Part shown: positions 5,382-24,271 of the stretch, in pieces
How the letters are laid out: every line of letters starts with the position of its first letter
Position numbering within the stretch: position 1 is the stretch's first letter
Source of the DNA: an uncultured Lactobacillus sp.
GTDB lineage: Bacteria > Bacillota > Bacilli > Lactobacillales > Lactobacillaceae
Assembly (NCBI RefSeq): GCF_948948975.1
Contig: NZ_CARBVX010000001.1
Location: 163,514-187,784, forward strand
Length of the DNA: 24,271 nucleotides
Direction of reading: 5' to 3'
Notes under the pieces: generated by a model
The model's input: only the letters and a program-made list of their open reading frames with translations
Database searches by the model: none
Told to the model about the DNA's origin: nothing
Translations under genes and position numbers: made by a program

Positions 5382-5492
5382 AACGAATTCCTTTTCTTGC
5401 TATACTAGGTTTTAAAACTTGTGTTTTTCCTTTTATTGTCTTTATTTAATTGTAATTCTTGAATATAAAGATCCTCAACCCCTTTTTAAGAC

Positions 5493-5538: not shown

Positions 5539-5552
5539 AATTTCAATAGTCG

Positions 5553-6899: not shown

Positions 6900-6948
6900 A
6901 ATTCAATCCTCAATATTTAGATCATTGTTACTATTTTACTAAAAAATA

Positions 6949-7632: not shown

Positions 7633-8329
7633 GCTTTATGCCTGCCTTTTCTAAAGTTGAGATGAATAATTCTTCTAAATCTGTTTCTGGTTCATAATCT
7701 TCTTCTAGAAGTAATTTTCCATCACCTAAAATAGCAATTCGATCTGCAACCTTTTGAATCTCAGAAAGCATGTGACTAGCTATAATTATTGTTTTTCCTT
7801 GCCTTTTCTCTAGCATCAAAAGCTCACGCAACTCATGAATACCAAAAGTATCAAGACCATTTGTTGGCTCATCCAAAATAACTAAATCAGGATCTCCCAT
7901 AAAAGCTAAAGCAATTCCTAAACGTTGTCTCATCCCTGTAGAAAATTCCTTAACTTTTTCTTGATTATGATCACCAAACCCTAATGTATTTAAGATTTGT
8001 TCCTGATTTTTATTTTCAACACGGTGAAGTTTTAGTTTTAATTTGATATTTTCTTCAACAGTTAAATTATCAAATAATCCTGGTTCTTCAATTAAGGAAC
8101 CAATTACTTTTAAATCTTCTCTTTTCCAATCTTTACCTTTGAAAGTAACCACACCTTCAGTTTGCTTTTCAACTCCACTAATTATTTTTAGTAGTGTCGA
8201 CTTTCCAGCTCCATTTGGTCCCATAATACAGTAGATTTTACCAGTAGGAACATGAAGATTGATTTGATCTAAAACATGCTTATGTTTAAAATGTTTTCCT
8301 AATTCTTTGGTGGTTAAAATATCATTCAT
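7625..8329 (-). CDS. ABC transporter ATP-binding protein, bacitracin/lantibiotic-export type
   Basis: A 234-residue single ABC domain. Walker A is GPNGAGKS (37-44), the signature is the variant FSTGMRQRLGIA (129-140) in place of LSGGQ, Walker B is LVILDEP (149-155), and the switch histidine is in IASHM. The STGM signature and the EEPGLFDNLTVEEN Q-loop region are typical of BcrA/LanF-like subfamilies. The ATG follows GAGGG at good distance. It heads the transcript that continues into the permease and probably the methyltransferase, and is divergent from the T-box leader (361 bases between the two coding regions). Confidence 0.88.
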   Translation of the reverse strand: MNDILTTKELGKHFKHKHVLDQINLHVPTGKIYCIMGPNGAGKSTLLKIISGVEKQTEGVVTFKGKDWKREDLKVIGSLIEEPGLFDNLTVEENIKLKLKLHRVENKNQEQILNTLGFGDHNQEKVKEFSTGMRQRLGIALAFMGDPDLVILDEPTNGLDTFGIHELRELLMLEKRQGKTIIIASHMLSEIQKVADRIAILGDGKLLLEEDYEPETDLEELFISTLEKAGIKHD

Positions 8330-8429
8330 CTTAATCCCTCAATTTAAATTTTTAGTTTTTTCTATACCTATTTATTTTACCGCTCAGACTGCATAATTCG
8401 AAATCTTATTATTTTTATTAATAAATTCA

Positions 8430-8458
8430 TTGACATCTTTTTTTAAGCTTGCTATCAT
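8430..8458 (+). promoter_or_regulatory. Promoter of the T-box leader
   Basis: A perfect TTGACA -35 (8430-8435) and a TATCAT -10 (8453-8458) are separated by the ideal 17 bases. Transcription should begin near 8465, just before the T-box stem I. Upstream, 8330-8429 is the AT-rich divergent spacer with the ABC operon leader; nothing else was recognised there. Confidence 0.85.
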
Positions 8459-8464
8459 AATTGC

Positions 8465-8676
8465 AATAATTATCGTCACAGTAGTGCTTATGTTAGGCGT
8501 CAGAGAGCTGGTGGTGAAGTGCGAACCAGTCAGGCATAAGTTACGAATTACAACGATCCATCTTTATTCGGCCACAATCAGTGCCGTTATCACCTGATCA
8601 GAGTGCTGCAATTTGCAGTAAATAGGTGGTACCACGGTAATGCGTCCTGTTGATTAATTTCAACAGGACTTTTTTA
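8465..8676 (+). ncRNA. T-box riboswitch, probably tyrosine-specific
   Basis: The leader carries the main T-box landmarks. The AGTA box is at 8480-8483, CTTATG/CATAAG forms the stem I helix, AGAGAG is followed by a CTGGT/ACCAG distal hairpin, and ATCGT (8472-8476) pairs with ACGAT (8553-8557) at the base. The T-box AGGTGGTACCACGG is at 8624-8637, and a terminator follows at 8644-8676. In the specifier loop, GAA (8545-8547) is followed by T-TAC-A. Reading TAC (8549-8551) as the codon gives tyrosine; the alternative frame TTA would be leucine. TGGT in the T-box fits a tRNA with discriminator A, which does not separate the two. Uncharged tRNA would permit readthrough into the transporter gene. 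Confidence 0.93.
8644..8676 (+). terminator. T-box regulatory terminator
   Basis: GTCCTGTTGA (8644-8653) and TCAACAGGAC (8660-8669) form a perfect 10-bp stem with a 6-base loop, followed by seven T. It begins right after the T-box sequence and competes with the antiterminator. The transporter ribosome site GGAGG (8679-8683) lies just downstream. Confidence 0.92.
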
Positions 8677-8690
8677 TTGGAGGATTTTTT

Positions 8691-10067
8691 ATGAAAAAGA
8701 AAGTTTCTTTTACCGAAGCAATTATTATCTTACTTTTGCTTCTACTTATTTTAGGTATTTCAGTTATTAATTTTGGACTGATGCCAGAAGTTCCCGTTCT
8801 ATTTACAGTATGTTTATTATTATTTTGGCTTAGAATTCGCGGAAATGACTGGTCTTCAATTCAAGATGGAATTAAAGAAGGGATCGGCGTAGCTATTATT
8901 CCCATTTTTATTTTTATCCTAATTGGAACTTTAATTGGACTATGGATTAAAGGAAGTATTATTCCGTCAATCATGGTATTAGGTTTTCACTTAATTAGTG
9001 GACAATTTTTTGTTCCATCTGTCTTCATTGTCTGTTCAATTGTTGGTCTTGCCATCGGAAGTGGTTTTACAACAATTTCAACTGTTGGGATTGCTCTCTT
9101 CGGAATTGGGGCGAGCATGAATGCTAATCCAGCTCTTGTTGCTGGCGCAATCATTTCTGGAGCAGTTTTTGGAGATAAAATGTCTCCTTTATCTGATTCA
9201 ACTAATCTTTCTTCTGCAGTTGCAGAAAGTGAATTATTTGCCCATATAAAGAACATGATGTGGTCCACTATTCCTGCCTTTGTTGTTTCTTTAATTCTTT
9301 TTTGGATTCTAGGAAACAGTGGTTCAATTGACGCTTCAAAAATTAATCACACCGTTTCTATCTTAGAGCATAACTTTACTATTACTTGGTGGGCAATTAT
9401 ACCAATCTTATTGATGTTAATTTGTGCATGGCGAAAAATTCCTGCAATTCCTACCTTATTTTTAAATATTACAGTTACAGTCATTATGATTTTTATTCAA
9501 AATCCGCACCAATCTATTACTGACTTAACTAACTTAATTATGAAAGGCTTTGTAGCAAAAACTAGTGATTCATCTGTTAATGCCCTTTTAACCAGAGGTG
9601 GTATCTCCAGCATGATGGATACAGTTGGTTTAATTATTGCCACCTTATCTCTTGGTGGACTCCTCATGAAATTCAATATTGTTCAAACTGCTATGGAACC
9701 GCTAGTTGAACATCTTAAAAAACCAGGTCGTTTAGTCATCACTACTATTCTTTCAGGCATTTGTATCAACTTATTTGTTGGTGAACAATACCTTTCAGTA
9801 ATTCTACCAGGGCGTGCCTTTAAACAAGCTTACGACCGAATTGGTCTTCACCCACTTGCTTTAAGCCGTGTTCTTGAAGACGGAGGAAGTGTAATTAACT
9901 ACTTAATTCCATGGGGAGTTGCGGGATCTTTTGCAGCTTCTACTCTTGGTGTGCCCGTCTTAGCCTTTATTCCATTTACTTTCTTTAGTTTGCTTTCTCC
10001 TCTTTTCTCAATTCTTTCAGGAGTTACAGGAATCGGTTTAAAATGGCAAAAGACTCCTAAAAATTAA
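8691..10067 (+). CDS. nhaC: NhaC-family transporter, annotated as Na+/H+ antiporter, possible tyrosine transporter
   Basis: A 458-residue polytopic membrane protein with about eleven hydrophobic segments. The family signature GAVFGDKMSPLSD (157-169) is intact, preceded by the glycine-rich AIGSGFTTISTVGIALFGIG (121-140). NhaC-family members exchange sodium for protons (or malate for lactate in MleN). Here the gene is controlled by a T-box whose specifier reads best as tyrosine. Related T-box-controlled NhaC-like genes (yheL) in Bacillus have been predicted in comparative genomics to import tyrosine, so amino-acid uptake is the better hypothesis for this one. Start ATG 8691 follows GGAGG at seven bases. 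Its stop codon lies inside the first copy of a 32-bp tandem duplication. Confidence 0.85.
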   Translation: MKKKVSFTEAIIILLLLLLILGISVINFGLMPEVPVLFTVCLLLFWLRIRGNDWSSIQDGIKEGIGVAIIPIFIFILIGTLIGLWIKGSIIPSIMVLGFHLISGQFFVPSVFIVCSIVGLAIGSGFTTISTVGIALFGIGASMNANPALVAGAIISGAVFGDKMSPLSDSTNLSSAVAESELFAHIKNMMWSTIPAFVVSLILFWILGNSGSIDASKINHTVSILEHNFTITWWAIIPILLMLICAWRKIPAIPTLFLNITVTVIMIFIQNPHQSITDLTNLIMKGFVAKTSDSSVNALLTRGGISSMMDTVGLIIATLSLGGLLMKFNIVQTAMEPLVEHLKKPGRLVITTILSGICINLFVGEQYLSVILPGRAFKQAYDRIGLHPLALSRVLEDGGSVINYLIPWGVAGSFAASTLGVPVLAFIPFTFFSLLSPLFSILSGVTGIGLKWQKTPKN

Positions 10068-10124
10068 TTTACCTAATTAAATCCGTACTATAAAATTAAT
10101 TTACCTAATTAAATCCGTACTATA
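10060..10124 (+). repeat. 32-bp tandem duplication at the 3' end of the nhaC gene
   Basis: A segment containing TTACCTAATTAAATCCGTAC occurs twice with a 32-base period (10060-10092 and 10092-10124), without mismatch. The first copy includes the stop codon of the transporter gene. The unit contains the left arm of the terminator that follows, so that arm is present twice. Confidence 0.92.
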
Positions 10125-10156
10125 TACGCTTACACAGTAAAATAGTACGGATTTTT
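10111..10156 (+). terminator. Rho-independent terminator after nhaC
   Basis: AAATCCGTACTAT (10111-10123) pairs with ATAGTACGGATTT (10142-10154) over 13 bp with an 18-base loop and a short T run. A second identical left arm at 10079-10091, made by the tandem duplication, could pair with the same right arm to give an alternative, longer-looped hairpin. Confidence 0.82.
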
Positions 10157-10157
10157 A

Positions 10158-10186
10158 TTGACGAATTTTTAATTACATTGTAAATT
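10158..10186 (+). promoter_or_regulatory. Likely promoter of the SAM hydrolase-ECF operon
   Basis: TTGACG (10158-10163) and TAAATT (10181-10186) are 17 bases apart, immediately after the nhaC terminator and 38 bases before the first start codon. The -10 is imperfect. The remaining leader is too short for a SAM or other known riboswitch. Confidence 0.5.
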
Positions 10187-10223
10187 ATTAGTAATTAAAA
10201 AAATATTAAAGAGGAGGAATTTG

Positions 10224-11069
10224 ATGACAACAAATCATTTTCTAGTACTACAAACTGACTTTGGCTTAAAAGATGGAGCTGTTAGTGCCATGCACGGAGT
10301 AGCACATATGGTTGCGCCACATGTTATTGTGTCCGACTTAACTCATGAGATTCCGCCTTATGATATTTGGGCTGCATCTTATCGTCTCTATCAAACTATT
10401 AAGTATTGGCCAAAAGGTACAACTTTTGTTTCAGTTGTTGATCCGGGAGTAGGATCTAAGCGAAAAAGTATTGCCGCTAAGACTAAAAGCGGCCACTTCA
10501 TCATTACACCAGATAATGGTTCCTTGACTCATATTGCAACTTATATGGGTCTAGACGAAGTACGAGAAATTGACGAACACAAGAATCGTCTTCCCTATTC
10601 TTCAGAAAGTAATACTTTCCATGGCCGTGATATCTATGCTTATAATGGGGCATTACTTGCTGAAGGAGAAAAATCTTTTGAAGATTTAGGCGAAACATTA
10701 GATCCAACTTCAGTTGTTAAACTACCACTTACTGAGGCCAGTCTAGAAAACGATCATCTACGCGGATCAATTGATGTTTTAGATATTCGCTTTGGTTCTT
10801 TATGGACTAATATTCCTTATGATTTAATTAAAAAGGCGAATATTCAACGTGGTGATAAACTTACTGTTACTATTACTTATCAAGACCAAGTTTATTATCA
10901 TGACACACTACCTTTTGTCCGGTCTTTTGCCGATGCACCAATCAATGATCCTTTAATCTATATTAATTCACTAGTTAATGTCGGCATTGCCTTAAACCAA
11001 GCTTCATTTGCGGATACCTATAATATTGGTACAGGAAATGACTGGAAAATTGATTTAATAAAAGAATAA
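10224..11069 (+). CDS. SAM hydroxide adenosyltransferase (DUF62, fluorinase-like family)
   Basis: A 281-residue protein of the family that splits S-adenosylmethionine to adenosine and methionine using water-derived hydroxide. The N-terminal motif QTDFGLKDGAV holds D12, the ligand for the ribose hydroxyls in relatives. The proposed catalytic triad is visible as D73 in VVDPGVG, R80 in SKRKS and H133 in TFHGRD, and PDNG lies at 96-99. The beta-rich C-terminal domain is present, so the length is normal. The track-like TTG start one codon upstream (10221) is rejected because GAGGAGG (10211-10217) is ideally placed for ATG 10224. It leads an operon with a complete ECF importer (S gene 20 bases downstream), suggesting its substrate or product relates to what is imported. 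Confidence 0.9.
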   Translation: MTTNHFLVLQTDFGLKDGAVSAMHGVAHMVAPHVIVSDLTHEIPPYDIWAASYRLYQTIKYWPKGTTFVSVVDPGVGSKRKSIAAKTKSGHFIITPDNGSLTHIATYMGLDEVREIDEHKNRLPYSSESNTFHGRDIYAYNGALLAEGEKSFEDLGETLDPTSVVKLPLTEASLENDHLRGSIDVLDIRFGSLWTNIPYDLIKKANIQRGDKLTVTITYQDQVYYHDTLPFVRSFADAPINDPLIYINSLVNVGIALNQASFADTYNIGTGNDWKIDLIKE

Positions 11070-11089
11070 TTTATTTACGGGGGAAAATT

Positions 11090-11647
11090 ATGAATAATCA
11101 AAAAGGCTTATCAGTAAAAAGTGTTGTTGCAATTGGTATTGGGGCTGCCATTTATGTTATTTTAGCTCGTTTCACATCAATTCCAACTGGTATTCCAAAC
11201 ACTAACATTGAAATCGTGTATCCATTTTTAGCATTGCTTGCGACCATTTATGGACCAGTTGTTGGTTTTTCCGTGGGATTCATTGGTCATGCCCTAAGTG
11301 ATTTCTTAATGTATGGACAAACTTGGTGGAGCTGGGTCCTTGCAACTGCTGTTCTAGGTTTAATTATTGGACTCTATGGTATGCGTCTTGATTTAGAGAA
11401 CGGTGTTTTCACTACTAAACAAATGATCGGTTTTAATATTGTCCAAATTATTGCTAATGTTGTTTCTTGGTTAATCATCGCTCCAGTTGGAGATATTTTG
11501 ATTTACAGTGAACCTCAAAACAAAGTTTTCTTACAAGGAGCAACTGCAACCATCACTAACTCAATCTCTATTCTTATTTTAGGAACTATCTTCCTTAAAG
11601 CTTATGCAGCGACTAAAGTTAAAAAAGGTAGTTTACGTAGAGATTAA
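11090..11647 (+). CDS. ECF transporter S component, UPF0397 family
   Basis: A 185-residue membrane protein with about five to six hydrophobic segments and a short basic C-terminal tail (KVKKGSLRRD). The pattern GxGAAIYVILARF near residue 17 and TIYGPVVGFSVGFIGHALSD around residues 52-71 match UPF0397 proteins, which are often labelled as riboflavin-type ECF substrate-binding components by fold. The true ligand is not established here. It binds substrate in the membrane and pairs with the T and A subunits encoded next. The ribosome site is GGGGGA, about six bases before ATG. Linkage to a SAM-splitting enzyme makes an adenosine- or methionine-related ligand worth testing. Confidence 0.85.
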   Translation: MNNQKGLSVKSVVAIGIGAAIYVILARFTSIPTGIPNTNIEIVYPFLALLATIYGPVVGFSVGFIGHALSDFLMYGQTWWSWVLATAVLGLIIGLYGMRLDLENGVFTTKQMIGFNIVQIIANVVSWLIIAPVGDILIYSEPQNKVFLQGATATITNSISILILGTIFLKAYAATKVKKGSLRRD

Positions 11648-11668
11648 TTATGAAAGGTTACTCAATTA

Positions 11669-13390
11669 ATGACAGAACCTATTATTGAATTTAAAGATTT
11701 TTCATTTAAATATAATAGCCAAGCAGAACCCACTCTTAAAAATATTAATTTGAAGATTAATAAAGGAGAAAAAATTCTTTTGGCTGGACCTTCAGGCAGC
11801 GGCAAATCAACAATTGGTCGCTGCCTTAATGGTCTTATTCCAAATATTGATCAAGGTGAAGTTGAAGGAAAATGTTTAGTGAATGGGAAAGATATCACTA
11901 ACACAAGTCTTTTTGACTTTTCATTCACTACTTCAACTATCTTACAAGATGCTGATAGTCAATTCATTGGCTTAACAGTTGGTGAAGATATCGCTTTTGC
12001 TTTAGAAAATGACTGTCAACCTAAAGATAAAATGCACCAAACTGTAAACCAGTGGGCTGATGAATTAAAAATCAAAGAATTACTTACTCAATCTCCACAA
12101 AGTCTTTCTGGAGGCCAAAAGCAAATTGTTGCCTTAGCTGGAGTTTTAGTCGACGAGTCACCTATTTTATTATTCGATGAGCCACTTGCTAATCTAGATC
12201 CTGCTTCTGGGCTTAAAACGATGGCAATTATCGATAAAATTCAAAAGGAACTTAATGCGACAGTTATAATTATTGAACATCGCGTAGAAGAAGTCCTCAG
12301 TCAACCAATTGACAGAATTATTTTAGTAAATGAAGGTACGATTGTTGCTGATCAGCCTACTAATCAGCTGCTACATTCTCATACCTTAGAAAAAATTGGC
12401 GTTAGAGAGCCACTATACCTAAAAGCTCTTACAGCTGCTAATATAAATCTAAGTTCTATTAAAGAAGTAGACCAAATATCAACTCTCCCTGTTTCTGAAA
12501 AAATCAGCGATAAATTAGCAGCTTGGACTAAACAAGCTAAAATCACCAAAAAAGAATCAGATAATTTACCGTTATTAAAATTAGATCACGTTGGTCATCA
12601 ATACAGTAAAAATCAACCGTATCCCTTAAAAGATGTTTCTACTACTATTAATCAAGGCGACTTTATTTCAATAGTTGGACAAAATGGTGCAGGCAAAACT
12701 ACCCTTTGCCGAACTATTTGTGGTTTTATTTCTAACAAAGGAAAAATCACCCTTAAGGACCAAAATTTAAATGACCTATCAATTAAAGAGAGAGCCGAAA
12801 AGATTGGTTATGTAATGCAAGATCCTAATCAAATGATTTCTCAAAAAATGATCTTTGATGAAATTGCTCTGGGTTTACGTTTACGCAATGTTGATGAAGA
12901 AACAATCAAGCAAAAAGTCGATCAAACTTTGAAAATTTGTGGGCTTTATCCCTTTAGACATTGGCCAATTTCCGCATTAAGTTTTGGACAGAAAAAGCGG
13001 GTCACAATTGCTGCAATTTTGGTCTTAGAACCAGAGATTATTATTTTAGATGAGCCAACTGCTGGTCAAGACTGGAAGACCTATACGGAAATTATGAGCT
13101 TTTTAAAGCACCTAAATACTATAGGTAAAACAATCATTATTATCACACATGATATGCATTTGATGCTTGAGTACACTAATCGATCTCTAGCATTTGCTAA
13201 AGGTAAATTAATTGCAGATACTACCCCAAGTGAATTATTAACCAATCCAGATTTAATTAAAGAAGCTTCATTAAAACGAACTAGTCTTTATGATTTAGCA
13301 AAACATTATAACTTATCTGATCCAAATAAATTTGTGCAAGCCTATATTAATTTTGAACAACAAAACTGGAAGGATGAAGATTATGAATGA
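11669..13390 (+). CDS. ECF transporter ATPase, two fused ABC domains
   Basis: A 573-residue protein with two complete ABC cassettes, replacing the EcfA/EcfA' pair. Cassette 1 has Walker A GPSGSGKS (40-47), signature LSGGQ (146-150) and Walker B ILLFDEP (166-172). Cassette 2 has Walker A GQNGAGKT (337-344), a modified signature LSFGQ (437-441) and Walker B IIILDEP (457-463). The Phe in the second signature makes the two ATP sites non-equivalent. The gene starts 21 bases after the S component and overlaps the T component by eight bases, so this is a dedicated (group I) ECF system. Start ATG 11669 has a modest AAGG site. Confidence 0.92.
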   Translation: MTEPIIEFKDFSFKYNSQAEPTLKNINLKINKGEKILLAGPSGSGKSTIGRCLNGLIPNIDQGEVEGKCLVNGKDITNTSLFDFSFTTSTILQDADSQFIGLTVGEDIAFALENDCQPKDKMHQTVNQWADELKIKELLTQSPQSLSGGQKQIVALAGVLVDESPILLFDEPLANLDPASGLKTMAIIDKIQKELNATVIIIEHRVEEVLSQPIDRIILVNEGTIVADQPTNQLLHSHTLEKIGVREPLYLKALTAANINLSSIKEVDQISTLPVSEKISDKLAAWTKQAKITKKESDNLPLLKLDHVGHQYSKNQPYPLKDVSTTINQGDFISIVGQNGAGKTTLCRTICGFISNKGKITLKDQNLNDLSIKERAEKIGYVMQDPNQMISQKMIFDEIALGLRLRNVDEETIKQKVDQTLKICGLYPFRHWPISALSFGQKKRVTIAAILVLEPEIIILDEPTAGQDWKTYTEIMSFLKHLNTIGKTIIIITHDMHLMLEYTNRSLAFAKGKLIADTTPSELLTNPDLIKEASLKRTSLYDLAKHYNLSDPNKFVQAYINFEQQNWKDEDYE

Positions 13391-14213
13391 TAGTAAAATT
13401 TTGGGCTACCAGCCAGGCAATAGTTTTATTCATGCCCTTAACGCAACTACAAAAATGATCTTTTTAATTCTAGTATCTATTGCTTGTATGGTTACCTATG
13501 ATACTCGCTTCTTGATTGCTATCTGTATCCTATCCTTAATTTTGTTAAAAGTTGCTGGTATCAAGTGGAAGCAAGTTTCTTTTATTGTTAAATTCATTAT
13601 TGTTTTTGCCATTATTAATATCATCGCTGTTTTTATTTTTCAGCCAACTTATGGTGAGACACTCTACCATTCAAAGACAGTTCTAATCAATGCAGGATAT
13701 TTTACCTTAACCGCACAGGAACTATTTTATTTATTTAACGTAATTTTGAAGTATATCTGTTCTATCCCATTGGTTCTCCTCTTCTTGTTAACTACTAATC
13801 CTAGTCAATTTGCAGCTAGTCTAAATAAAATTGGTGTTAGTTATAAAGTTGCCTATGCTGTTTCTCTAGCATTGCGCTATATTCCTAATATTCAAGAAAG
13901 TTATTGGTCAATCTCTGCTGCTCAACAAGCAAGAGGAAATGAACTTTCTAAAAAAGCTTCTCTTGGAAAGAGAATTCATGGAACTTTAAATATCGTTACC
14001 CCACTTATTTTTTCAAGTCTTGATCGTATCGATACAATTAGTACGGCAATGCAACTTCGTCGATTTGGCTCTAAAAAGAAACGTACTTGGTATGTGGCAG
14101 AAAATTTCAACTTAGCTGATTATTTAGTTACTACTTTAGCCTTTATTTTGGTATTAGTTGTAATTTTGCTCTTTAAAGTTAACTCTGGTCGTTTCTATAA
14201 TCCTTTTGTATAA
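13383..14213 (+). CDS. ECF transporter T component (EcfT)
   Basis: A 276-residue transmembrane coupling protein with hydrophobic segments in the N-terminal half and near the C-terminus (about residues 246-264). Between them is the cytoplasmic coupling region with the EcfT motif QQARGNEL; the second Ala-Arg-Gly motif is diverged to LRRFG. Start ATG 13383 is preferred over an upstream in-frame TTG (13332) because AAGG (13370-13373) fits it and it gives the usual 8-base overlap with the ATPase stop codon, implying translational coupling. It completes the ECF module. Confidence 0.88.
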   Translation: MNDSKILGYQPGNSFIHALNATTKMIFLILVSIACMVTYDTRFLIAICILSLILLKVAGIKWKQVSFIVKFIIVFAIINIIAVFIFQPTYGETLYHSKTVLINAGYFTLTAQELFYLFNVILKYICSIPLVLLFLLTTNPSQFAASLNKIGVSYKVAYAVSLALRYIPNIQESYWSISAAQQARGNELSKKASLGKRIHGTLNIVTPLIFSSLDRIDTISTAMQLRRFGSKKKRTWYVAENFNLADYLVTTLAFILVLVVILLFKVNSGRFYNPFV

Positions 14214-14221
14214 AAGTTTCT

Positions 14222-14250
14222 TTTACTGTCAAGATAAGTTAAAATATACT
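14222..14250 (+). promoter_or_regulatory. Promoter of the Bax inhibitor-1 family gene
   Basis: TTTACT (14222-14227) and TATACT (14245-14250) are separated by 17 bases, starting just nine bases after the EcfT stop. The start codon is 31 bases downstream of the -10. No terminator stands between EcfT and this promoter, so some readthrough is expected. Confidence 0.6.
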
Positions 14251-14281
14251 AATAAAAAGAAAGAGGGAAAGGAAGAGCTAT

Positions 14282-14995
14282 ATGAATAACTTTTCACAAG
14301 AACCAGAACGTCGTACAATTGTTGACGTAACTGGCTTAAATAGATTCTTAAGTAGAATGTATGGCATGATGACAATTGCTGTTTTAGTATCAGCTTTAAG
14401 TGCTTACTTAACCATGACTGTCTTTAGAACACAAGTCATGACTTTATTTGCTAGGAATCCAGCTATGACTTGGATTTTATTGTTAGTTCCACTTGCTTTA
14501 ACTTTCGGAATTAGTTTTAGAGCTACACGAAATCCAGTAGCAAGCTTTGTAATGCTAATGATCATGGCAATTATATATGGAGTTGAATTTTCATTAATTG
14601 CCGGTGCTTATACTGGACGTAGTATTGCTTCTGCATTCGTAGCTTCCTCTACTGTATTCATTACAATGGCTGTAATTGGTACTACCACTAAAAAGAACTT
14701 AAATAATTTAGGATCATATGCTTCAGCAGCTTTAATTGGTTTAATTGTTGCAATGTTAATTAACATGTTCTTAAGAAACCCAATGGTTTCCTATATCTTC
14801 TCATTTATTGCAGTTATTATCTTTACTATCTTAACTGCTTGGGATGCACAAAGAATGAAGCAAATCTACGAAAACTACAGTGGTCAAGTTTCAGTTGACG
14901 GCTTAGCAGTTGCGGGTGCTTTAGCACTTTACTTAGATTTCGTTAACTTGTTCTTACAATTTTTACAAATCTTTGGATTTAGCGATAGAAATTAA
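14282..14995 (+). CDS. Bax inhibitor-1/YccA family membrane protein
   Basis: A 237-residue protein with a short hydrophilic N-terminus and seven hydrophobic segments. Family features include the N-terminal FLSRMYGMM stretch, the YGVEFSLIAGAYTG segment, and the C-terminal ILTAWDAQRMKQIY followed by LYLDFVNLFLQFLQIFG. Bacterial members (YetJ-like, UPF0005) have been shown in some cases to be pH-sensitive calcium leak channels; the role here is not determined. The ribosome site AAAGGAAGAG precedes ATG 14282. It has its own promoter and terminator and is therefore probably monocistronic. Confidence 0.9.
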   Translation: MNNFSQEPERRTIVDVTGLNRFLSRMYGMMTIAVLVSALSAYLTMTVFRTQVMTLFARNPAMTWILLLVPLALTFGISFRATRNPVASFVMLMIMAIIYGVEFSLIAGAYTGRSIASAFVASSTVFITMAVIGTTTKKNLNNLGSYASAALIGLIVAMLINMFLRNPMVSYIFSFIAVIIFTILTAWDAQRMKQIYENYSGQVSVDGLAVAGALALYLDFVNLFLQFLQIFGFSDRN

Positions 14996-15070: not shown

Positions 15071-17095
15071 TTATTCAATTTTGCCAATAATTTCTTCTTC
15101 ATAAGCCTCATCGTGTATTGAAGCAATATTTTCATCATAATTGAATTCTGCCGTATGCTTATTTTTAAGCTTGACTTTATAAGTAGCTCCCATCTTGAAC
15201 CATTCATATTCTGAGTCAATATGACCCACATCGACTAATTGATTATCTAAATCTTGAAGATCATCAACGATTACCTTAGCTGTTGGTCCAAGCATCAACA
15301 AAATCAACCTATCTTCTGCATTTTCTCGAATCATTTGTTCTATTTGGTTAACTTTTTGGTATGCATTTCTTGATGGTGCAATAATTCTTTTAACCGACTT
15401 AGTATTATCAAATAAGTCGTTACCAACTCCTGAACGTGTTAACGCTCCTTCAACAATTAAGACATCTTTTTCTTTCCAAATCTGCTTAAGTTTATTAAAC
15501 CAACTAGCACTTTTAGATTTATCAATTCGATCAATATATGGTCTGGAAATAAAGGTATTGCTATAGATATTTTCTGTTTTTTCTATTTCTGTTAGAAGAT
15601 GTTGATTGTTAACAAAGAAATTAGTTTCATAAAAATCTTTGGTGTATTGACCATAATCTTCTAAACTTTCAAATACATCTGGAAGAGCAACATCGTATTT
15701 ATTATTACTTCCAGCAAAAAGAATCTGTTTTAATTTTCTCGACAGATTTTCATCATATGCTTGATAAGTAATATCATTTCCATTAATTAAACTTAATTCT
15801 CCATCACCAAAGCGAATAATGGATTTTTTCTTATTAATAAGTCGATCTAGTGATTCATCCATTCCTCTGACCTGAATATTAAAAAGTTGAGGAGCTAAGT
15901 GGTCAGTAGGACTTGTTCCTAACTTTTGGATTACCTCTGCCATTTCATCAATTTGATCGTCTTCAAAGACTTTATAGGCATCATAATTTATACTTTCAGA
16001 TCTTGAAGAATTAAAGGACAAAATAGGAACTTGTCGGTGCTTTATCCGATTAAGTACCATTTTATTTTTACTACCATAATTAATATCAAGGTAAACTGTA
16101 CACATATTAATAAGCTCAATTTGTTTTTTAGCAGTAGCACTTGGATATATAGTGACGTTATCATATTGAGATAAATGACTTAATAAAAAAGCAACTGGAG
16201 TAAATGCCGCAATACTAAAGTGAATATTAGGTAATTTTTTTACTAGCTCTTCTAAGTTTTGAACTTCAGCGACATTGGTAAGCATATAGGCTTCTCCCTC
16301 AAATTGAGGATACTTTTTTGTATTAAAATTAATATCTTTAGAAATAATTTTTGACCATTCTAGATTATGATACTTCCACCATTTTTCTCTTAAAGCAGTC
16401 GTATTGGTAATATTAAAGGGCTTATCTTCATCAGTAAAATGAATAATAGCAGGTTCTTTTATATGATCAAAGAATGAATAAAAACTGTCTTTATCATTCC
16501 AATAACTGTTTCTCTCATAGCCAATTTGGTAATTATATTTTGGATCTAGCTTTCCATAGTTCTGCGCAAATCCTTCATTCATCATAACCTGAGTGTTATT
16601 TAGATTATATTTCCTCCCCAAATCCAATAATTGGTTTCCGATATTGTTGTTATGCCAAAATCTATTATTAATTAATAAGACCCCTGAATTAAAGTAATCA
16701 GGATTAAAGTAGTCCACTATAGTATAGAGAGGTCTAGCTTCAATATTAGTTTCAAAAAGCTGATCTAAATTTTTGTCCACAATCACATCACTATCTAAAT
16801 AAAGAACTTTATCTTCTTTAATTAATTCTGGAATCAAAAATTTGCCATATACCATCTTAGAAATTCGATCTTCAGGATTTGGCATATCTTTAAAACGACT
16901 AAGATCAATTTTTACATCAATAATTTCTGAATTTATCTTTTTCAAATATCGATTAATATTCATAAACCACTCGTGTGGAATATCAGGATTAATAATATAG
17001 GTTTTTACATCTTGATTATGAGCATAAATAGACTTTAATGTTGTTTCTGCTTGATCAATCCAGCTATAGTCTACACTTAATGCAATTGTCTTCAT
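15071..17095 (-). CDS. Three-domain glycosyltransferase GT8/GtfB-like/GT-D (copy A)
   Basis: A 674-residue cytoplasmic enzyme, last cistron of the operon. Residues 1-250 are a GT8 domain with D101-S-D103 (metal/nucleotide-sugar site), NSG (136-138) and the H219...K225-P motif, all intact. Residues 265-395 resemble the C-terminal Rossmann half of adhesin glycosyltransferase subunit GtfB (for example VYLDINYG at 334-341). Residues 405-674 are a DUF1792/GT-D domain with RFGDGE, whose Asp-Gly-Glu is at 431-433, then VEGALTRSGVGNDLF (548-562) and LMLGPTAKV (600-608). GT-D domains were described from dGT1 in Fap1 glycosylation. It probably adds sugars to the nearby serine-rich adhesin. The start overlaps the previous stop as TAATG. 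Substrates are unknown. Confidence 0.85.
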   Translation of the reverse strand: MKTIALSVDYSWIDQAETTLKSIYAHNQDVKTYIINPDIPHEWFMNINRYLKKINSEIIDVKIDLSRFKDMPNPEDRISKMVYGKFLIPELIKEDKVLYLDSDVIVDKNLDQLFETNIEARPLYTIVDYFNPDYFNSGVLLINNRFWHNNNIGNQLLDLGRKYNLNNTQVMMNEGFAQNYGKLDPKYNYQIGYERNSYWNDKDSFYSFFDHIKEPAIIHFTDEDKPFNITNTTALREKWWKYHNLEWSKIISKDINFNTKKYPQFEGEAYMLTNVAEVQNLEELVKKLPNIHFSIAAFTPVAFLLSHLSQYDNVTIYPSATAKKQIELINMCTVYLDINYGSKNKMVLNRIKHRQVPILSFNSSRSESINYDAYKVFEDDQIDEMAEVIQKLGTSPTDHLAPQLFNIQVRGMDESLDRLINKKKSIIRFGDGELSLINGNDITYQAYDENLSRKLKQILFAGSNNKYDVALPDVFESLEDYGQYTKDFYETNFFVNNQHLLTEIEKTENIYSNTFISRPYIDRIDKSKSASWFNKLKQIWKEKDVLIVEGALTRSGVGNDLFDNTKSVKRIIAPSRNAYQKVNQIEQMIRENAEDRLILLMLGPTAKVIVDDLQDLDNQLVDVGHIDSEYEWFKMGATYKVKLKNKHTAEFNYDENIASIHDEAYEEEIIGKIE

Positions 17096-19115
17096 TATTC
17101 AATTTCTCCAATAATTTCATTCTCATAAGTTTGGTCATGGATTGCCCCAATATTATCATCAAAATTAAACTCTGCCGTATGCTTATTCTTCAACCTCACT
17201 TTATAAGTAGCTCCCATCTTGAACCATTCATATTCTGAATCAATATGACCTAGGTCTATAAGCTGATTATTTAAATCTTGGAGATCATCTATAATTACCT
17301 TTGCTGTCGGTCCAAGCATCAACAAAATCAACTTATCTTCTGCATTTTCTCGGATCGTTTGTTCTATTTGATCAATTTTTTGGTATGCATTCTTTGATGG
17401 AGCAAGAATTCTTTTAATCGATTTAGTATTAGCAAATAAATCATTACCTACCCCAGAACGTGTAAGGGTACCTTCAACAATTAAGACATCTTTATTCTTC
17501 CAAATCTGCTTAAGCTTATCAAACCAAATTGCACTTTTAGATTTATCAATTCGATCCATATACGGTCTGGAAATAAAAGCGTTACTGTAAATATTATTAG
17601 TACTCTCTATTTCTGCTAAATCTTTTCGATTTCTCGGAAAGAAATCATTTATATAGTAAACTTTTGCATACATCCCATAGGCCCCTAAGCCATCAAACAC
17701 ATCTGGAAGAGCTACATCATATTTATCATTACCACCTTGTAAGAGAATATGTTTGAGACGTTTTGAAAGATTTTCATCATAAGTTTGATACCCTATTTCT
17801 TTTTTATTAATTAAATAGAATTCTCCATCCCCAAAACGAACAATTGACTTATTTTTATTGAGAATACGATCCAAAGTTTCATCTATACTTCTAACACGAA
17901 TATCATACCTTTTTTCAGCTGTTTTTGAAGATTTTTTTACTGTATCTTCTATAGAATGAGCCATTTTATCAATCTCACTATCCTCAAAGATATGATAATT
18001 TTTATAATTTAAGTTTATAGATTTTGAAGCCCTAAACGAAAAAATTGGAATATTTTTAGCCTTAATTCGATCAATTACTAGTTCTTCTTTTCGTCCATAA
18101 TTAATATCTAGGTAAACATCACAATTATTAATCAATTCAATTTGTTTGTGTGGGATGACACTTGGATATATAGTCACATTATCATATTGAGATAAATGAC
18201 TTAATAAAAAAGCAACTGGAGTAAATGCTGCAATGCTAAAGTGAATATTAGGTAATTTTTTTACTAGCTCTTCTAAATTTTGAACTTCAGCGACATTGGT
18301 AAGCATATAGGCTTCTCCCTCAAATTGAGGATACTTTTTTGTATTAAAATTAATATCTTTAGAAATAATTTTTGACCATTCTAGATTATGATACTTCCAC
18401 CATTTTTCTCTTAAAGCAGTCGTATTGGTAATATTAAAGGGCTTATCTCGCTCAGTAAAATGAATAATTTTAGGGATCTTTACTTGATCAAAGAATGCAT
18501 AAAAACTATCTTTATCATTCCAATAACTTTTTCGCTCATAGCCAATTTGATAATTATATTTTGGATCTAGCTTTCCATAATTCTGCGCAAATCCTTCATT
18601 CATCATAACCTGAGTATTATTTAGATTATATTTCTTCCCTAAATCCAATAATTGATTTCCATATTGTTGTTATGCCAAAATCTATTATTGATTAATAAGA
18701 CTCCTGAATTAAATTGAGTCGGATTAAAATAATCCGTTACTGTATAAAGTGGTCTATCTTCAATATTAGTTTCAAAAAGCTGATCTAAATTTTGGTCCAC
18801 AATTACATCACTATCTAAGTAAAGAACTTTATCTTCTTTAATTAATTCTGGAATCAAAAATTTGCCATATACCATCTTAGAAATTCGATCTTCAGGATTT
18901 GGCATATCTTTAAAACGACTAAGATCAATTTTTACATCAATAATTTCTGAATTTATCTTTTTCAAATATCGATTAATATTCATAAACCACTCGTGTGGAA
19001 TATCAGGATTAATAATATAGGTTTTTACATCTTGATTATGTGCATAAATAGACTTCAAAGTTGTTTCTGCCTTATCAATCCAACTATAATCAACACTTAA
19101 GGCGACTGTCTTCAT
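17095..19115 (-). pseudogene. Three-domain glycosyltransferase GT8/GtfB-like/GT-D (copy B), frameshifted
   Basis: The N-terminal 158-residue piece (18639-19115) and the remaining frame (to 17095) together match copy A end to end; repaired length would be 673 residues. A single base is missing between 18660 and 18661: copy A reads ATATCGGAAAC where this copy reads ATATGGAAATC, destroying Ile-Gly-Asn and giving an early stop. The site is not a homopolymer or slippery heptamer. The GT8 motif LDSD, the NSG motif, the middle YLDINYG and the GT-D motif RFGDGE are otherwise intact, so the lesion is recent, phase-like, or a sequencing error. The truncated GT8 half would lack its HxxxxKP end. Start and stop are in TAATG overlaps with both neighbours. 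Confidence 0.85.
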
Positions 19116-21133
19116 TACCTAATTTCTCCGATAATTTCACTTTCATAAGTCCTATCGTGAACTGTTGCAATATTTTCATCAAAATTGAATTCCGCTGTAT
19201 GCTTATTTTCAAGCTTAACTTTATGAGTAGCACCCATCTTGAACCATTCATATTCTGAATCAATATGACCTAAATCAATAATTTGATTCTCTAAATCTTG
19301 CAAATCATCCACAACTACTTTCGCTGTTGGCCCAAGCATCAACAAAATCAGCCTATCTTCTGCATTTTCTCGAATCATTTGTTCTATTTGATCAATTTTT
19401 TGGTATGCATTCTTTGATGGAGCAATAATTCTTTTAATTGATTTAGTATTAGTAAATAAATCATTTCCTACTCCTGAACGCGTCAGTGCTCCCTCTATGA
19501 TTAGGAGATCACGACCATTCCAAAGTTGTTTCAATTTATCAAAGTATGCAGCACTTTTACTTTTATCAACTAGATCAATATATGGTCTTGAAATAAAAGT
19601 TGAACCATACCAATTACCAGTTTGTCCAATTTCTTTTAAGAAACTTTCATTATTTGGAAAGAAAGATGTTTCATAGAATGATTGAGTAAAATCTTGATAA
19701 CGCTCCGGTTTGGTAAATACATCTGGTAAACAAACCAAGGTATTATTAAATTGGCCCCGCAAAATAATATCTTTTAGTCGATTGGCAAGTTCTGAATTAT
19801 AGGTTTGATAAGGAATTGAGGCTCCTCTAATTAAATCAAATTCACCATCTCCAAAACGAATTACAGATTTATTGTCTTGCAAAATCAAGTCTAATGATTC
19901 ATCCATATCTTTTACTCTAATATTATAGTTTGGAGCATTAGTTTTTACTGTCTCTTTAATCGCTTCTGCCATTTCATCAATTTGATTATCATGAAAGACA
20001 TGATAATTATCATAATCCAAATTTTGAGACTTAGTCTGATCAAAAGAAAAGATTGGAACATTTCTCTTCATAATTCTTTCAATTACTTCATTAGCTTTAG
20101 GCTCATAGGTAATATCTAAATAAATATCTGCTTCATTTATTTCTCTATCCAAAGTTTTTCCTATAATCTGTGGAAAAAGTCTAACATTGTCATATTGTGT
20201 TAACTTGAGTAAAAGAAAAGCCATTGGTGTATACGCAGCAATATTGAATCTTATATTTGGCAATTTTTGAATCAATTGCTCAATATTCTGCGTTTCAGCT
20301 ACATTAGTAAGAATAAAAGCTTCCCCATCAAAAGATAGATCTTTAACTCTACTTTTATCAAAACTGCTATATTTAGAAATAATTTCTGACCATTCTAGTC
20401 TTCTATAATGCCACCATTTATTTCGTAAACTAACTGTTGATACTAAGTTAAATGGCTTGTCTTCAGTAATAAAGTGAATTATTTTTGGTTTTTTAACTTT
20501 ATCAAGAAATTGTGTAGTTTTTTGCAGATTTCCCCAAAAAGCTGCTTTTTCAAAACCAATTTGGTAATTATAAGATAGATCTAATTCTTCGATTTTATCT
20601 TTAAATACTTCATTAATCACAGTCTGATCACCATTTCGAAGATTAGGATCTTTTGCTTTTTCTAAAAGGCTAGAAACTATGTTACTTTCCTTCCACTTTT
20701 TATTATTAATCAATAACATTCCCGAATTAAATTCTGCAGGAACTTGATAGTCACGCACACCACAAACCCATTTATTTTCTAAATCAATATTAAATAATTC
20801 ATCTAAATTGGCATCCACAACTATATCACAATCTAAATATAGTACTTTATCTTCTTTAATTAATTCAGGAATTAGTATTCTCGCAAAAGCAATATTTTTA
20901 ATTCCTCGAAAAGTGGAATTCACGTCATCTAAATATGCTTGATTAATTTTTTTATCTACAATTTGTGAACCTATTTGATTAAGATATTGATTCAAATTAA
21001 TAAACCATTCGTGTGGAATATCGGGATTTATAACATAGATTTTTACTTTTTGATTATGATAAATAATTGACTTAATAGTTGTTTCAATTTTATCCACATA
21101 TCCATAATCACCATTTAATACTATCGTTTTCAA
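19115..21133 (-). CDS. Three-domain glycosyltransferase GT8/GtfB-like/GT-D (copy C)
   Basis: First cistron of the three-gene operon, 672 residues from the chosen start. Its GT8 domain has D101-C-D103, NSG and HFITEDKP, plus the more canonical GDQTVIN motif. The middle domain carries DIYLDITY, and the C-terminal GT-D domain has RFGDGEFDLI with Asp-Gly-Glu. It is more diverged than A and B are from each other. The open frame also contains a GTG three codons upstream (21142), but TTG 21133 aligns with the LKTIVLN/MKTI start of the paralogs and has a GAG site upstream; neither is certain. Its 3' end encodes the ribosome site for copy B. It probably acts on the serine-rich adhesin; donor and acceptor are unknown. 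Confidence 0.83.
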   Translation of the reverse strand: MKTIVLNGDYGYVDKIETTIKSIIYHNQKVKIYVINPDIPHEWFINLNQYLNQIGSQIVDKKINQAYLDDVNSTFRGIKNIAFARILIPELIKEDKVLYLDCDIVVDANLDELFNIDLENKWVCGVRDYQVPAEFNSGMLLINNKKWKESNIVSSLLEKAKDPNLRNGDQTVINEVFKDKIEELDLSYNYQIGFEKAAFWGNLQKTTQFLDKVKKPKIIHFITEDKPFNLVSTVSLRNKWWHYRRLEWSEIISKYSSFDKSRVKDLSFDGEAFILTNVAETQNIEQLIQKLPNIRFNIAAYTPMAFLLLKLTQYDNVRLFPQIIGKTLDREINEADIYLDITYEPKANEVIERIMKRNVPIFSFDQTKSQNLDYDNYHVFHDNQIDEMAEAIKETVKTNAPNYNIRVKDMDESLDLILQDNKSVIRFGDGEFDLIRGASIPYQTYNSELANRLKDIILRGQFNNTLVCLPDVFTKPERYQDFTQSFYETSFFPNNESFLKEIGQTGNWYGSTFISRPYIDLVDKSKSAAYFDKLKQLWNGRDLLIIEGALTRSGVGNDLFTNTKSIKRIIAPSKNAYQKIDQIEQMIRENAEDRLILLMLGPTAKVVVDDLQDLENQIIDLGHIDSEYEWFKMGATHKVKLENKHTAEFNFDENIATVHDRTYESEIIGEIR

Positions 21134-21208
21134 ACTTATCACTCATTTCTGCTAATATTTAAACATCTAACTTTTTATAAGTTATCTAATATGTGCTACT
21201 TAAAATCT

Positions 21209-21310: not shown

Positions 21311-21357
21311 AAAAGAAAAAAGGAACCAAACAGTATTTCTTAACTGCTTAATTCCTT
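21311..21357 (-). terminator. Rho-independent terminator after glycosyltransferase copy D
   Basis: On the minus strand a 15-bp stem (21357-21343 with 21334-21320, outer arms AAGGAA/TTCCTT and inner arms CAGT/ACTG, joined by G-U pairs) encloses an 8-base loop and is followed by a T-rich tract TTTTTCTTTT. It separates copy D from the C-B-A operon. Confidence 0.78.
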
Positions 21358-21415: not shown

Positions 21416-23428
21416 TTATTTCTTTTTAATTTTCAGAATTATTTCTTTTTGATACTGTGGATTATCTTCCTCACCCAAATATCTATCAGCAACTTCGGCC
21501 ATATGCTTATTTTTGCCAATCGGCACTACATATTTAGCACCCATTTTAAACCATTCATATTCTGTATCAATATGACCGATATCAAGTATTTGATTATCCA
21601 AATCTTGTAAATCATTAACAATTACTTTAGCCGTCGGTCCAAGCATCAATAAGATCAACTTATTCTGAGCATTACTTCTAATTGCTTCCTCAATTTCATC
21701 AACTTGATTAAAAGCATCCGCAGCTGGACAAATTATTCGTTGAATTGACTTTGCATTTTCAAAAAGATCATTGCCAACACCGGAACGAGTATATTCACCT
21801 TCAACAATTAAAATATCCTTATCCTTCCAAATATCCCTAAGTTTATCGACATAATGTTGGCTTTTACTTTTATCCCTAAAACTTATATACATTCTAGACA
21901 TAAAAGTCGAGCCATACGAATACTTTGACTTTTCAATTTCTTTAAATAAGTCACTAAATTTGGGTAAAACCCCTAAGGCATAGTAGCCTCGCATTTCATT
22001 ATATCTGTCTAAATTAGTAAAAATATCTGGCAAGCACGTTAATATCTTAGAATTATGGTTATTTAGAATACAATCCTTTAACACCTTTGCTAACTTTGAA
22101 TTAGAATGTTGATAACGAATATCTTCACCATATATCAAGTCTAGTTCACCATCTCCGATTCGCACCACAGATTTCTTATTTTCAATTATTTCATCTAAAG
22201 TTTCATCAATTGATTTGACTGAAATATCAAAAACATCATCAAACGTTTTTCGAGAATTATTTGCTGGCAATTTATTAACTTGATTTATCAAATCATCCAT
22301 ACTCTCAAATACATAATAGTTGTTACCCTTTTCAGAATATTGAGTGTCACTAAAAGCAAAGGTAGGAATGTCTAACATATTTAATACAGTTTCAATATAT
22401 GTATCTTTATCACCATAGCCGATATCAAAACAAAGATCTGTTTTTTCAATAATTGATTTTAAGTGATAATTTAAAATTTGAGGATATAAAGTAACATTTT
22501 CATTCTGTGTTAAAACATCTAAGCCTGCATATAAATCTCGTTTGGAGACAATATTAAAGTGAATGTTTGGTAACTGTTTAATTAATTCTTCCGCTCCATG
22601 ATTTTCCGCATAATTCAGAAAAATAAGAGCTTCTTTATCAAAATTCTTCTTAATTCGGTTAGGGATTACACGGGCAACTACTTCTGACCATTCACTACTA
22701 TAATAATTCCACCATTTCTTATTTAATCGTTTAGGAGAATTTTCTCTAATTAGCCTATAGTCAGTAGCATATTGGATAATTGCAGGCTTATCCACAGTAT
22801 CTTCATAATACAGATATGAGTTTGTCAACTCAAAATTAGAATTTCCAAAGCTAATTTGATAATTATAAATTTCAGGTAGTTTACCAATATTGATACCGAA
22901 GCCATTATTAATCATCGTTTGATCATCAATGAAATCATAATTTTTAGCTAATTCTAAAAATTGATTACCAATATTATTATTGCGCCAATAGATATTGTTC
23001 ATAAGCATAACATTCGTATTAAACTTATCAGGATGGACAAAATCAACTGTTGCATATAAAGGCTTGTCATTAACATCAGTAGCGAATAGCTTATCTAAAT
23101 TTTTATCAATAATTGTATTATTGCCTAAATAAAGTACTTTATCTTCATTTACCAACTCTGGAATTAAAAACTTGCCGTATTCTATTTTTGACCGATTATC
23201 CCCCTTTAATTCTGGCAATTTATTAAAACGATTCAAGTCTATTTTTTTGTCAATTATTTTCGAATTAATATTATTTAGAAAAGAATTGATATTTACAAAC
23301 CATTCGTGTGATATATCAGAATTAATAATATAAACTCTAATATCTTTATTATTAGTAAAAAGAGACTTCAAAGTTGTTTCGATTTGGCTAAGCTTATCAT
23401 AATTAGCACATAAAACAATTGTTTTCAT
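21416..23428 (-). CDS. Three-domain glycosyltransferase-like protein with degenerate GT8 domain (copy D)
   Basis: This 670-residue paralog is the one nearest the adhesin. Its N-terminal GT8 fold is recognisable (residues 1-250 align with copies A-C), but the metal motif is G102-N-N (23117-23125), NSG became N137-T-N, and HxxxxKP became Q219YATDYR. This domain is therefore probably inactive. The middle GtfB-like domain (LYPQI, CFDIGYGD) and the C-terminal GT-D domain (RIGDGELDLI with Asp-Gly-Glu at 426-428; VEGEYTRSGVGNDLF) are intact. It ends in a basic IKKK tail unlike the others. It has its own promoter and terminator. The ribosome site GGAGGAG is 12 bases upstream of ATG 23428. It may be a single-activity enzyme whose GT8 remnant binds the acceptor or a partner. 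Confidence 0.84.
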   Translation of the reverse strand: MKTIVLCANYDKLSQIETTLKSLFTNNKDIRVYIINSDISHEWFVNINSFLNNINSKIIDKKIDLNRFNKLPELKGDNRSKIEYGKFLIPELVNEDKVLYLGNNTIIDKNLDKLFATDVNDKPLYATVDFVHPDKFNTNVMLMNNIYWRNNNIGNQFLELAKNYDFIDDQTMINNGFGINIGKLPEIYNYQISFGNSNFELTNSYLYYEDTVDKPAIIQYATDYRLIRENSPKRLNKKWWNYYSSEWSEVVARVIPNRIKKNFDKEALIFLNYAENHGAEELIKQLPNIHFNIVSKRDLYAGLDVLTQNENVTLYPQILNYHLKSIIEKTDLCFDIGYGDKDTYIETVLNMLDIPTFAFSDTQYSEKGNNYYVFESMDDLINQVNKLPANNSRKTFDDVFDISVKSIDETLDEIIENKKSVVRIGDGELDLIYGEDIRYQHSNSKLAKVLKDCILNNHNSKILTCLPDIFTNLDRYNEMRGYYALGVLPKFSDLFKEIEKSKYSYGSTFMSRMYISFRDKSKSQHYVDKLRDIWKDKDILIVEGEYTRSGVGNDLFENAKSIQRIICPAADAFNQVDEIEEAIRSNAQNKLILLMLGPTAKVIVNDLQDLDNQILDIGHIDTEYEWFKMGAKYVVPIGKNKHMAEVADRYLGEEDNPQYQKEIILKIKKK

Positions 23429-23639: not shown

Positions 23640-23666
23640 CGGATTTTTCAATATTAATACTCATAA

Positions 23667-23700
23667 AATAAAGCCTTGAAATTAATTTCAAGGCTTTATT
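23667..23700 (-). terminator. Rho-independent terminator after the serine-rich adhesin
   Basis: A perfect 34-bp palindrome (17 + 17 bases, core AAGCCTTGAAATT) lies 12 bases after the adhesin stop codon and is followed by a T-rich tract on the minus strand. It isolates the adhesin transcript from the downstream glycosyltransferase genes. Confidence 0.85.
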
Positions 23701-23711
23701 TCTATTCTTTA

Positions 23712-24271
23712 TTATTTTCTATTTTTTCTCTTTTTGTTTCTCAATCCTAATAAAGCTCCTAAAGTAGTTGCAACAATTCCTAACAAACCTGAATCATTTT
23801 TAGCACCAGTTTGTGGAAGTTTCCGATTGATAGAGCGTGCCGTCCTTCTATGAACTTTATTTACTCTAGTTACCTCAACTGAATCCGATTTTCTTCTATT
23901 TGGATAGAAATGCGTCTCAGTGGTTGTACCTGGAGTTATTTGTTCAGTTTGATTGTTAAGTGAAGTTGATGGAGTTTCAGAAGGTATCAAACTTTGAGAA
24001 ACTGAGTGACTATTCAGCGTAGAAGTTGATGTGTTTGAGTTGCTTAAGCTTTCACTCATGCTTACTGAGTTGCTTAGGCTCTCACTCATGCTTACTGAGT
24101 TGCTTAAGCTTTCACTCATGCTTACCGAGTTACTTAGACTTTCACTCATGCTTACTGAGTTGCTTAGACTTTCGCTCATGCTTACTAAGTTACTCAAACT
24201 TTCGCTCATACTTACTGAGTTACTCAAGCTTTCGCTCATGCTTACTAAGTTACTCAAACTTTCACTCATTG
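23712..24271 (-). CDS. Serine-rich repeat adhesin, C-terminal end (partial)
   Basis: Only the last 186 or so codons are in the window; the frame is open to the right edge. Residues near the edge are Ser-rich decapeptide repeats (SMSESLSN followed by S/L and V), the hallmark of Fap1/GspB-type serine-rich adhesins. A short Thr/Pro-rich and basic linker follows, then the sortase motif LPQTG (23805-23819), a hydrophobic segment (LLGIVATTLGALLGL) and a basic tail (RNKKRKNRK). It is therefore wall-anchored. In this family the repeats are O-glycosylated in the cytoplasm and exported by the accessory SecA2/SecY2 system, neither of which is visible here. The glycosyltransferases immediately downstream fit that picture. 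Confidence 0.93.
   Translation of the reverse strand, partial: MSESLSNLVSMSESLSNSVSMSESLSNLVSMSESLSNSVSMSESLSNSVSMSESLSNSVSMSESLSNSVSMSESLSNSNTSTSTLNSHSVSQSLIPSETPSTSLNNQTEQITPGTTTETHFYPNRRKSDSVEVTRVNKVHRRTARSINRKLPQTGAKNDSGLLGIVATTLGALLGLRNKKRKNRK
24037..24271 (-). repeat. 30-bp tandem repeats of the serine-rich adhesin
   Basis: Seven full 30-bp units (24061-24270) and one partial unit (24037-24060) encode the decapeptide SMSESLSN(S/L)V, and the array continues beyond the window. Units differ at a few mostly synonymous positions, with a Ser/Leu alternation at one codon. Such arrays change length by slippage or recombination. Confidence 0.93.

Follow-up and report, generated by a model that had tools for sequence, protein, structure and literature searches.

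The window analysed here, a stretch of 24,271 nucleotides from an uncultured Lactobacillus sp., holds beside a serine-rich repeat adhesin a series of GT8/GT-D glycosyltransferases, of which the one adjoining the adhesin (copy D, followed by C, B and A) has altered GT8 active-site motifs and an intact GT-D motif. With slightly better than even confidence, we read D as a one-headed descendant of a two-headed serine-rich repeat protein (SRRP) glycosyltransferase, its GT-D domain active and its GT8/add-on half a non-catalytic module. The elements of D are as follows.

21416..23428, minus strand: copy D, a GT8/GlyE-type add-on/GT-D protein; one frame, 670 amino acids, ATG start, GGAGGAG upstream
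22709..23428, minus strand: GT8 domain (residues 1–240; PF01501)
23117..23125, minus strand: former DXD, now Gly102-Asn103-Asn104
23012..23020, minus strand: former Asn-Ser-Gly (NSG), now Asn137-Thr-Asn139
22751..22774, minus strand: former HxxxxDKP, now QYATDYRL (residues 219–226)
22235..22708, minus strand: add-on domain (residues 241–398), which resembles GlyE in its second part and, more weakly, GtfB towards the C-terminus
21419..22234, minus strand: stretch after the add-on, holding the GT-D Asp-Gly-Glu (DGE)
22145..22153, minus strand: intact GT-D Asp426-Gly-Glu428

Residues and coordinates bear out the preliminary description, which had reported three altered GT8 motifs (GNN, NTN and QYATDYRL) in a full-length protein that keeps the GT-D motif (DGE, 426–428). 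DXD and HxxxxDKP, the marks of an active GT8 enzyme, are both absent from D. The Lys of HxxxxDKP is associated with the diphosphate, and the NSG motif also has its role in GT8 enzymes. The C-terminal His of the GT8 enzyme LgtC is described as metal-binding (PMC7185993). That the other copies have Asp-Ser/Cys-Asp was right for A, C and the fragment B1 (DSD, DCD and DSD, each with NSG), but the third copy, B, is frameshifted within GT8.

The predicted fold persists around the altered site. PF01501 matches residues 4–220 of D at 49.4 bits (Pfam cut-off 24.3), with higher scores for C (120.5) and A (93.8). In a search of solved structures, the front half of D aligns with Streptococcus pneumoniae GlyE (5gvv, residues 3–362, 8e-41) and the back half with GT-D/DUF1792 domains. 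The GT8 domain is predicted to adopt a GlyE-like fold, of the GT-A type seen in LgtC and GlyE. Model confidence falls below 50 at residues 224–230, in the former HxxxxDKP region; over the block 221–230 it is 45 in D versus 63 in A, a mild difference that we do not use as proof. The GT-D fold is also recovered; PF08759 matches residues 421–646 at 256.2 bits (cut-off 27).

The motif loss is conserved across species. A protein search returned 61 relatives, among them eight full-length proteins 77–100% identical to D (P0001–P0008), which with D itself give nine D-clade sequences; since some are near-identical (P0001 differs from D at three alignment positions, and P0003–P0006 lie close to one another in the tree), the conservation values given below for stretches of GT8 are measured on six distinct sequences. 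Two members carry a species label, P0006 (L. taiwanensis) and P0008 (L. reuteri); neither L. johnsonii nor L. gasseri is among the labels of the nine. The nine group as a single, long-stemmed clade in a tree of 62 proteins. All nine have (G/S)NN for DXD, with both aspartates gone, and all lack Asp224, Pro226 (Leu throughout) and Arg236, while the GT-D DGE is present in D and in P0001–P0008. The NSG, His and Lys losses noted earlier extend to most of the clade and not to all of it: residue 219 is Gln and residue 225 Arg in eight of nine, P0007 being the exception at both sites with His and Lys in place, and Gly139, the last residue of NSG, is retained in four of nine. An ortholog with an intact DXD, which would have spoken for decay in one strain, was not found among the nine. 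A family-wide search, which sampled 397 genomes of a larger group, yielded no further intact D ortholog.

Among relatives whose GT8 motifs are intact, P0010 is the nearest. Its differences from copy A amount to 16% of GT8 sites, 70% of add-on sites and 47% of GT-D sites, and those from D to 56% of add-on and 39% of GT-D sites. P0010 thus looks like a mosaic, a copy-A-like GT8 domain on a more D-like add-on and GT-D, which suggests recombination between paralogs.

Selection still acts on the GT8 domain. By simple Nei–Gojobori counting on a single genome pair, with the two pieces of the broken copy in genome G061 read separately, the ratio of nonsynonymous to synonymous divergence (dN/dS) between D and its ortholog is 0.152 for GT8 residues 84–240 (bootstrap 0.075–0.262), 0.171 for the add-on (at a synonymous divergence, dS, of 1.26, near saturation) and 0.117 for GT-D; GT8 residues 1–83, missing in the ortholog, and residues 241–258 are left out. 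For comparison, the GT8 values of the intact neighbouring copies are 0.107 in A and 0.122 in C. The ratio of GT8 to GT-D protein distances within clades is 1.43 for D, 0.69 for A and 2.07 for C, with 2.09 and 1.11 in two further groups.

Site by site, we compared the nine sequences with 59 GT8 positions at least 93% conserved among 51 non-D proteins (counts and profiles exclude two distant proteins read from loci, L051_10 and L059_11). Forty-five are kept in all D-clade sequences, six in some and eight in none. Of the fully lost positions, four fall among the seven that belong to donor-site motifs (4/7 versus 4/52 elsewhere; Fisher p=0.0045, the set having been named post hoc). The strand around the former DXD (residues 98–110) has a conservation of 0.949, equalled or exceeded in 22 of 228 windows of the same kind. 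With dN/dS low, 45 of 59 positions kept and the former HxxxxDKP loop less conserved than most of the domain, GT8 is kept as a whole and relaxed where the nucleotide was once capped. The comparison supports purifying selection on the tested part of the D GT8 domain, a pattern that fits retention for some use better than decay. When the domain was earlier called repurposed, the dead-looking donor/metal site, the conservation of its loss across species and the purifying selection were all on that side; the new role itself we infer.

As a separate observation, synonymous divergence between D and its ortholog in locus L060 is 0.6–1.3, against 0.15–0.38 for the neighbours A and C, a contrast that would fit a separate history for D or an exchange of A and C from one species to another.

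Several results weigh against the one-headed reading. Conservation at the former HxxxxDKP loop (residues 216–236) is only 0.746, against 0.826 for the domain, and 189 of 220 windows equal or exceed it, which is what relaxation at that place would produce. The D add-on lacks 7 of 31 conserved positions and scores lowest against the GtfB model TIGR02919 (residues 258–389, 7.4e-9, 34.8 bits, versus 44.8–92.8 for the others among six two-headed proteins); this is far below the cut-off of 338.3 bits, so that D as a whole does not belong to the GtfB family. The solved-structure search gave no GtfB match for D and one each for A and C. Such differences do not speak for an acceptor role that has been preserved unchanged. 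GT-D itself lacks 15 of 105 conserved positions, and its activity is therefore assumed from motif and fold.

D is also rare. D-type matches occur in 2 of 75 genomes of the genus (G001 and G061, 75–79% identity), both broken: they start at residue 83–84 and lie in two frames, and an add-on/GT-D frame of 394 amino acids remains (open reading frames of L060 and L001). Genomes G026, G070 and G072 carry C- and A-type copies without D. Being rare, broken in both genomes and missing beside C and A elsewhere, D is a dispensable, accessory gene. Two further D-type proteins, P0009 and P0011, lack GT8, and the GT-D half, by these comparisons, can outlast the GT8 half.

Known systems suggest what D might do. 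In the SRRP pathway, GtfA/GtfB add N-acetylglucosamine (GlcNAc), GtfC usually adds glucose (Glc) and DUF1792/GT-D enzymes take the third step (PMC6973325); hexose transfer to Glc–GlcNAc–SRRP is reported for GT-D relatives (PMC6973325, PMC5063993). By analogy with these domains, the most likely task of the D GT-D domain is to extend Glc–GlcNAc-primed serine-rich repeats by a third sugar, a hexose. Its GT8 domain would no longer bind a metal–nucleotide-sugar productively and would be catalytically silent, the folded GT8/add-on half being retained by selection as a non-catalytic module. This half most likely holds the glycosylated repeat, or else stabilizes or oligomerizes the protein so that GT-D works. 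The intact C and A would supply the GT8 activity, in which case the glycans made by D would go no further than the GT-D step.

The closest known systems compare with D as follows. GlyE of the S. pneumoniae PsrP locus (5gvv, 5gvw) has DSD and H...DKP where D has neither, and its 406-residue chain has no GT-D part. In dGT1 (GalT1, 4phr/4pfx; PMC5063993), listed with 5v4a as a solved DUF1792/GT-D counterpart, GT-D is described as N-terminal and its partner as an active C-terminal GT-A domain, unlike D. The SP_1767 family model TIGR03728 places D above its cut-off (363.1 versus 290.75 bits); it covers GT-D only and is silent on the GT8 half. The D add-on is weakly similar to positions 276–410 of GtfB/Gtf2 (5e9t, TIGR02919), which is described as the inactive acceptor-binding partner of GtfA in the same pathway; unlike GtfB, D carries a GT-D domain of its own within a single chain. 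EXTL3 and EXT2 of heparan sulfate synthesis are, as presented in PMC9178029 and PMC9675754, two-domain transferases in which one donor site is lost and the fold kept, as in D, although they are eukaryotic and belong to the unrelated families GT47/GT64.

The alternative that survives best, though we think it unlikely, is that the dead GT8 domain is kept only for folding or solubility and has gained neither a ligand nor a partner. In its favour, GT8 is under selection of an ordinary kind, with nothing special about it, and the former donor-capping loop is both less conserved and poorly defined in the model. D-type frames without GT8 (those of P0009, P0011, L060 and L001) show that GT-D may do without it; these frames, however, may be unexpressed remnants. 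Also against this alternative, the strand at the former DXD is nearly invariant though nothing catalytic seems left there, and GT-D domains have been solved as separate chains, so that their folding need not require GT8.

We consider it improbable that D forms hetero-oligomers with one of the paralogs C and A in which its dead GT8 domain docks onto their active one, in the manner of EXT1–EXT2. Precedents are the pseudo-glucuronosyltransferase domain of EXT2, reported in a tight heterodimer with EXT1 (PMC9675754), and the description of GtfA–GtfB as a complex with an inactive subunit, and D does neighbour intact C and A. Such an interface is hypothetical, however; D looks like its own transcription unit, and C- and A-type copies occur without D in the three genomes named above.

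Doubt is greater still over a D GT8 domain that has remained active without metal, like bacterial GT6 enzymes with NXN. BoGT6a, a GT-A-fold enzyme with uncharged residues in place of DXD as in D, is described as active without metal (PMC3961637), GT14 and prokaryotic GT6 enzymes are reported to have lost DxD and kept activity (PMC7185993), and Arg for Lys225 in eight of nine sequences keeps the charge. BoGT6a has Asn at the first motif position, where it contacts the ribose (PMC3961637), and an important Lys that is conserved in GT6; the D clade has Gly/Ser in nine of nine and Lys in one of nine, which weakens the case. D lacks the GT6 signature of Asn at positions 1 and 3 with the diphosphate Lys, and Asp224, Pro226 and Arg236 are gone throughout the clade. 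Finally, strain-specific decay of a D gene on its way out, to which the late start at residue 84 and the two frames of the gene in G001 and G061 might point, is rejected as very hard to credit given the motif loss in nine of nine sequences (eight of them full length and outside the window) and dN/dS values that stay well under 1 for GT8, add-on and GT-D alike.

Motif losses recur elsewhere in the family. We assembled 220 proteins from the list of 61 relatives and the best 120 entries of each of two longer lists (413 and 428 entries); counts over the 272 GT8 domains are not independent, because many are near-duplicate streptococcal proteins. Both DXD aspartates are present in 257 of the 272 GT8 domains covering the motif positions, and the D clade accounts for nine of the remaining 15. 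In an L. gasseri-type group (P0045, P0046, P0062, L020_6 and L021_7; named after the label of P0046) the loss is graded: NSS and Asn for His in 5/5, Lys to Asn in 4/5 and DSD to GSD in 3/5. In two loci of this type (L068:1191-5714 and L069:1151-5669), the neighbours of the fused protein with its eroded GT8 are two stand-alone GT8 genes that keep DSD, His and Lys-Pro. Scattered changes include DSN, NPN and Asn for His in P0166, Asn for His in P0049 and P0066, ESD in P0085 and L046_9, and DSN in the GT8-only proteins P0057, P0059 and P0060. A candidate fourth loss in D, Asn for Asp at residue 9, was discarded, being non-diagnostic: Asn is common there outside the D clade (65 of 74 occurrences among the 272 domains).

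The mirror image also exists. Of 226 GT-D domains, five have a changed DGE (GAGE in P0079, P0081 and P0082; GNGE in P0014 and P0022), and each of these proteins retains its GT8 motifs; a sixth domain is truncated at the motif. GNGE was also read from genome DNA in the two-headed protein of L063:3047-5071. GT8-only proteins make up 8 of 234 family sequences, so that domain loss is not one-sided. Such changes, read from sequence, do not prove inactivation, and loss of the C-terminal His is reported to be compensated in other GT-A families (PMC7185993). These parallel and mirror-image losses lend some support to the earlier suggestion that the steps may be divided differently among the proteins of the series. 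A broader idea we offer tentatively, as a possibility rather than an expectation: that the two-headed enzymes of lactobacilli, which decorate serine-rich repeat adhesins, undergo a repeated, reciprocal division of labour in which paralogs give up either donor site but retain both folds, and that the D-clade GT8 half is now a glycopeptide-holding module feeding GT-D, a second, independent GtfB-like invention.

The genes around D in the window are these.

23712..24269, minus strand: serine-rich repeat adhesin, C-terminal end (last 185 amino acids), with SLSNSVSMSE-type repeats and an LPXTG-type anchor; runs off the window
23666..23701, no strand assigned: symmetrical terminator-like hairpin in the adhesin/D gap (pattern match only)
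21320..21357, minus strand: terminator-like hairpin after D (pattern match only), which would part D from C–B–A
19115..21142, minus strand: copy C, GT8 (DCD, HFITEDKP) and GT-D motifs intact
18639..19115, minus strand: copy B, first piece (B1), N-terminal part of GT8 with DSD and NSG; frameshifted
17095..18648, minus strand: copy B, second piece (B2), end of GT8 (HFTERDKP), add-on and GT-D
15071..17095, minus strand: copy A, GT8 (DSD, HFTDEDKP) and GT-D motifs intact

On the strength of the two hairpins, D would be its own transcription unit. The frameshift in copy B (17095–19115) lies inside GT8, where B has one base fewer than A at the matching place; it puts GT8 and add-on/GT-D in different frames and may be real or an assembly error. 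At the other end, positions 2–2698 encode a surface protein with a YSIRK signal and an M26 (IgA1-type) metallopeptidase domain, which also runs off the window.

GtfB scores above its cut-off in seven of eight related genomes tested. In G061 (C1:405827-407134 and C1:1539381-1545450) its gene lies about 0.8–1.1 Mb from the adhesin and the two-headed transferases, unlike G036 and G023, where the distance is about 15–31 kb. Plasmid homologues of D were found in seven records, matching from residue 400 on (GT-D only), all at less than 60% identity; a near search of window positions 3500–14995 in plasmids gave no match. Two 3,874-bp records labelled as Klebsiella pneumoniae plasmids (NZ_CP147636.1 and NZ_CP147642.1) carry a GT-D-like frame, 34.7% identical and without an annotated gene; this sequence is possibly mislabelled.

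Dead domains in two-domain transferases are already known from EXTL3 and EXT2, and a dead acceptor binder is known within the same pathway, GtfB, as their published descriptions have it. Added here are a GT8 domain that looks dead, and is conserved in that state, within a GT8/GT-D fusion, and the parallel and mirror-image loss of active sites across the family. Among the matches listed from the open-access literature, searched by titles and abstract starts, no SRRP transferase was described as having a dead GT8 domain. One-headed enzymes may help to explain why there are more such transferases than sugars on the adhesin, their number having been commented on in a primary study and in a subsequent review, and natural examples, with GT8 motifs lost here and the GT-D motif changed there, are a concrete, testable part of the answer. 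These variants are a ready-made means of assigning sugars to domains.
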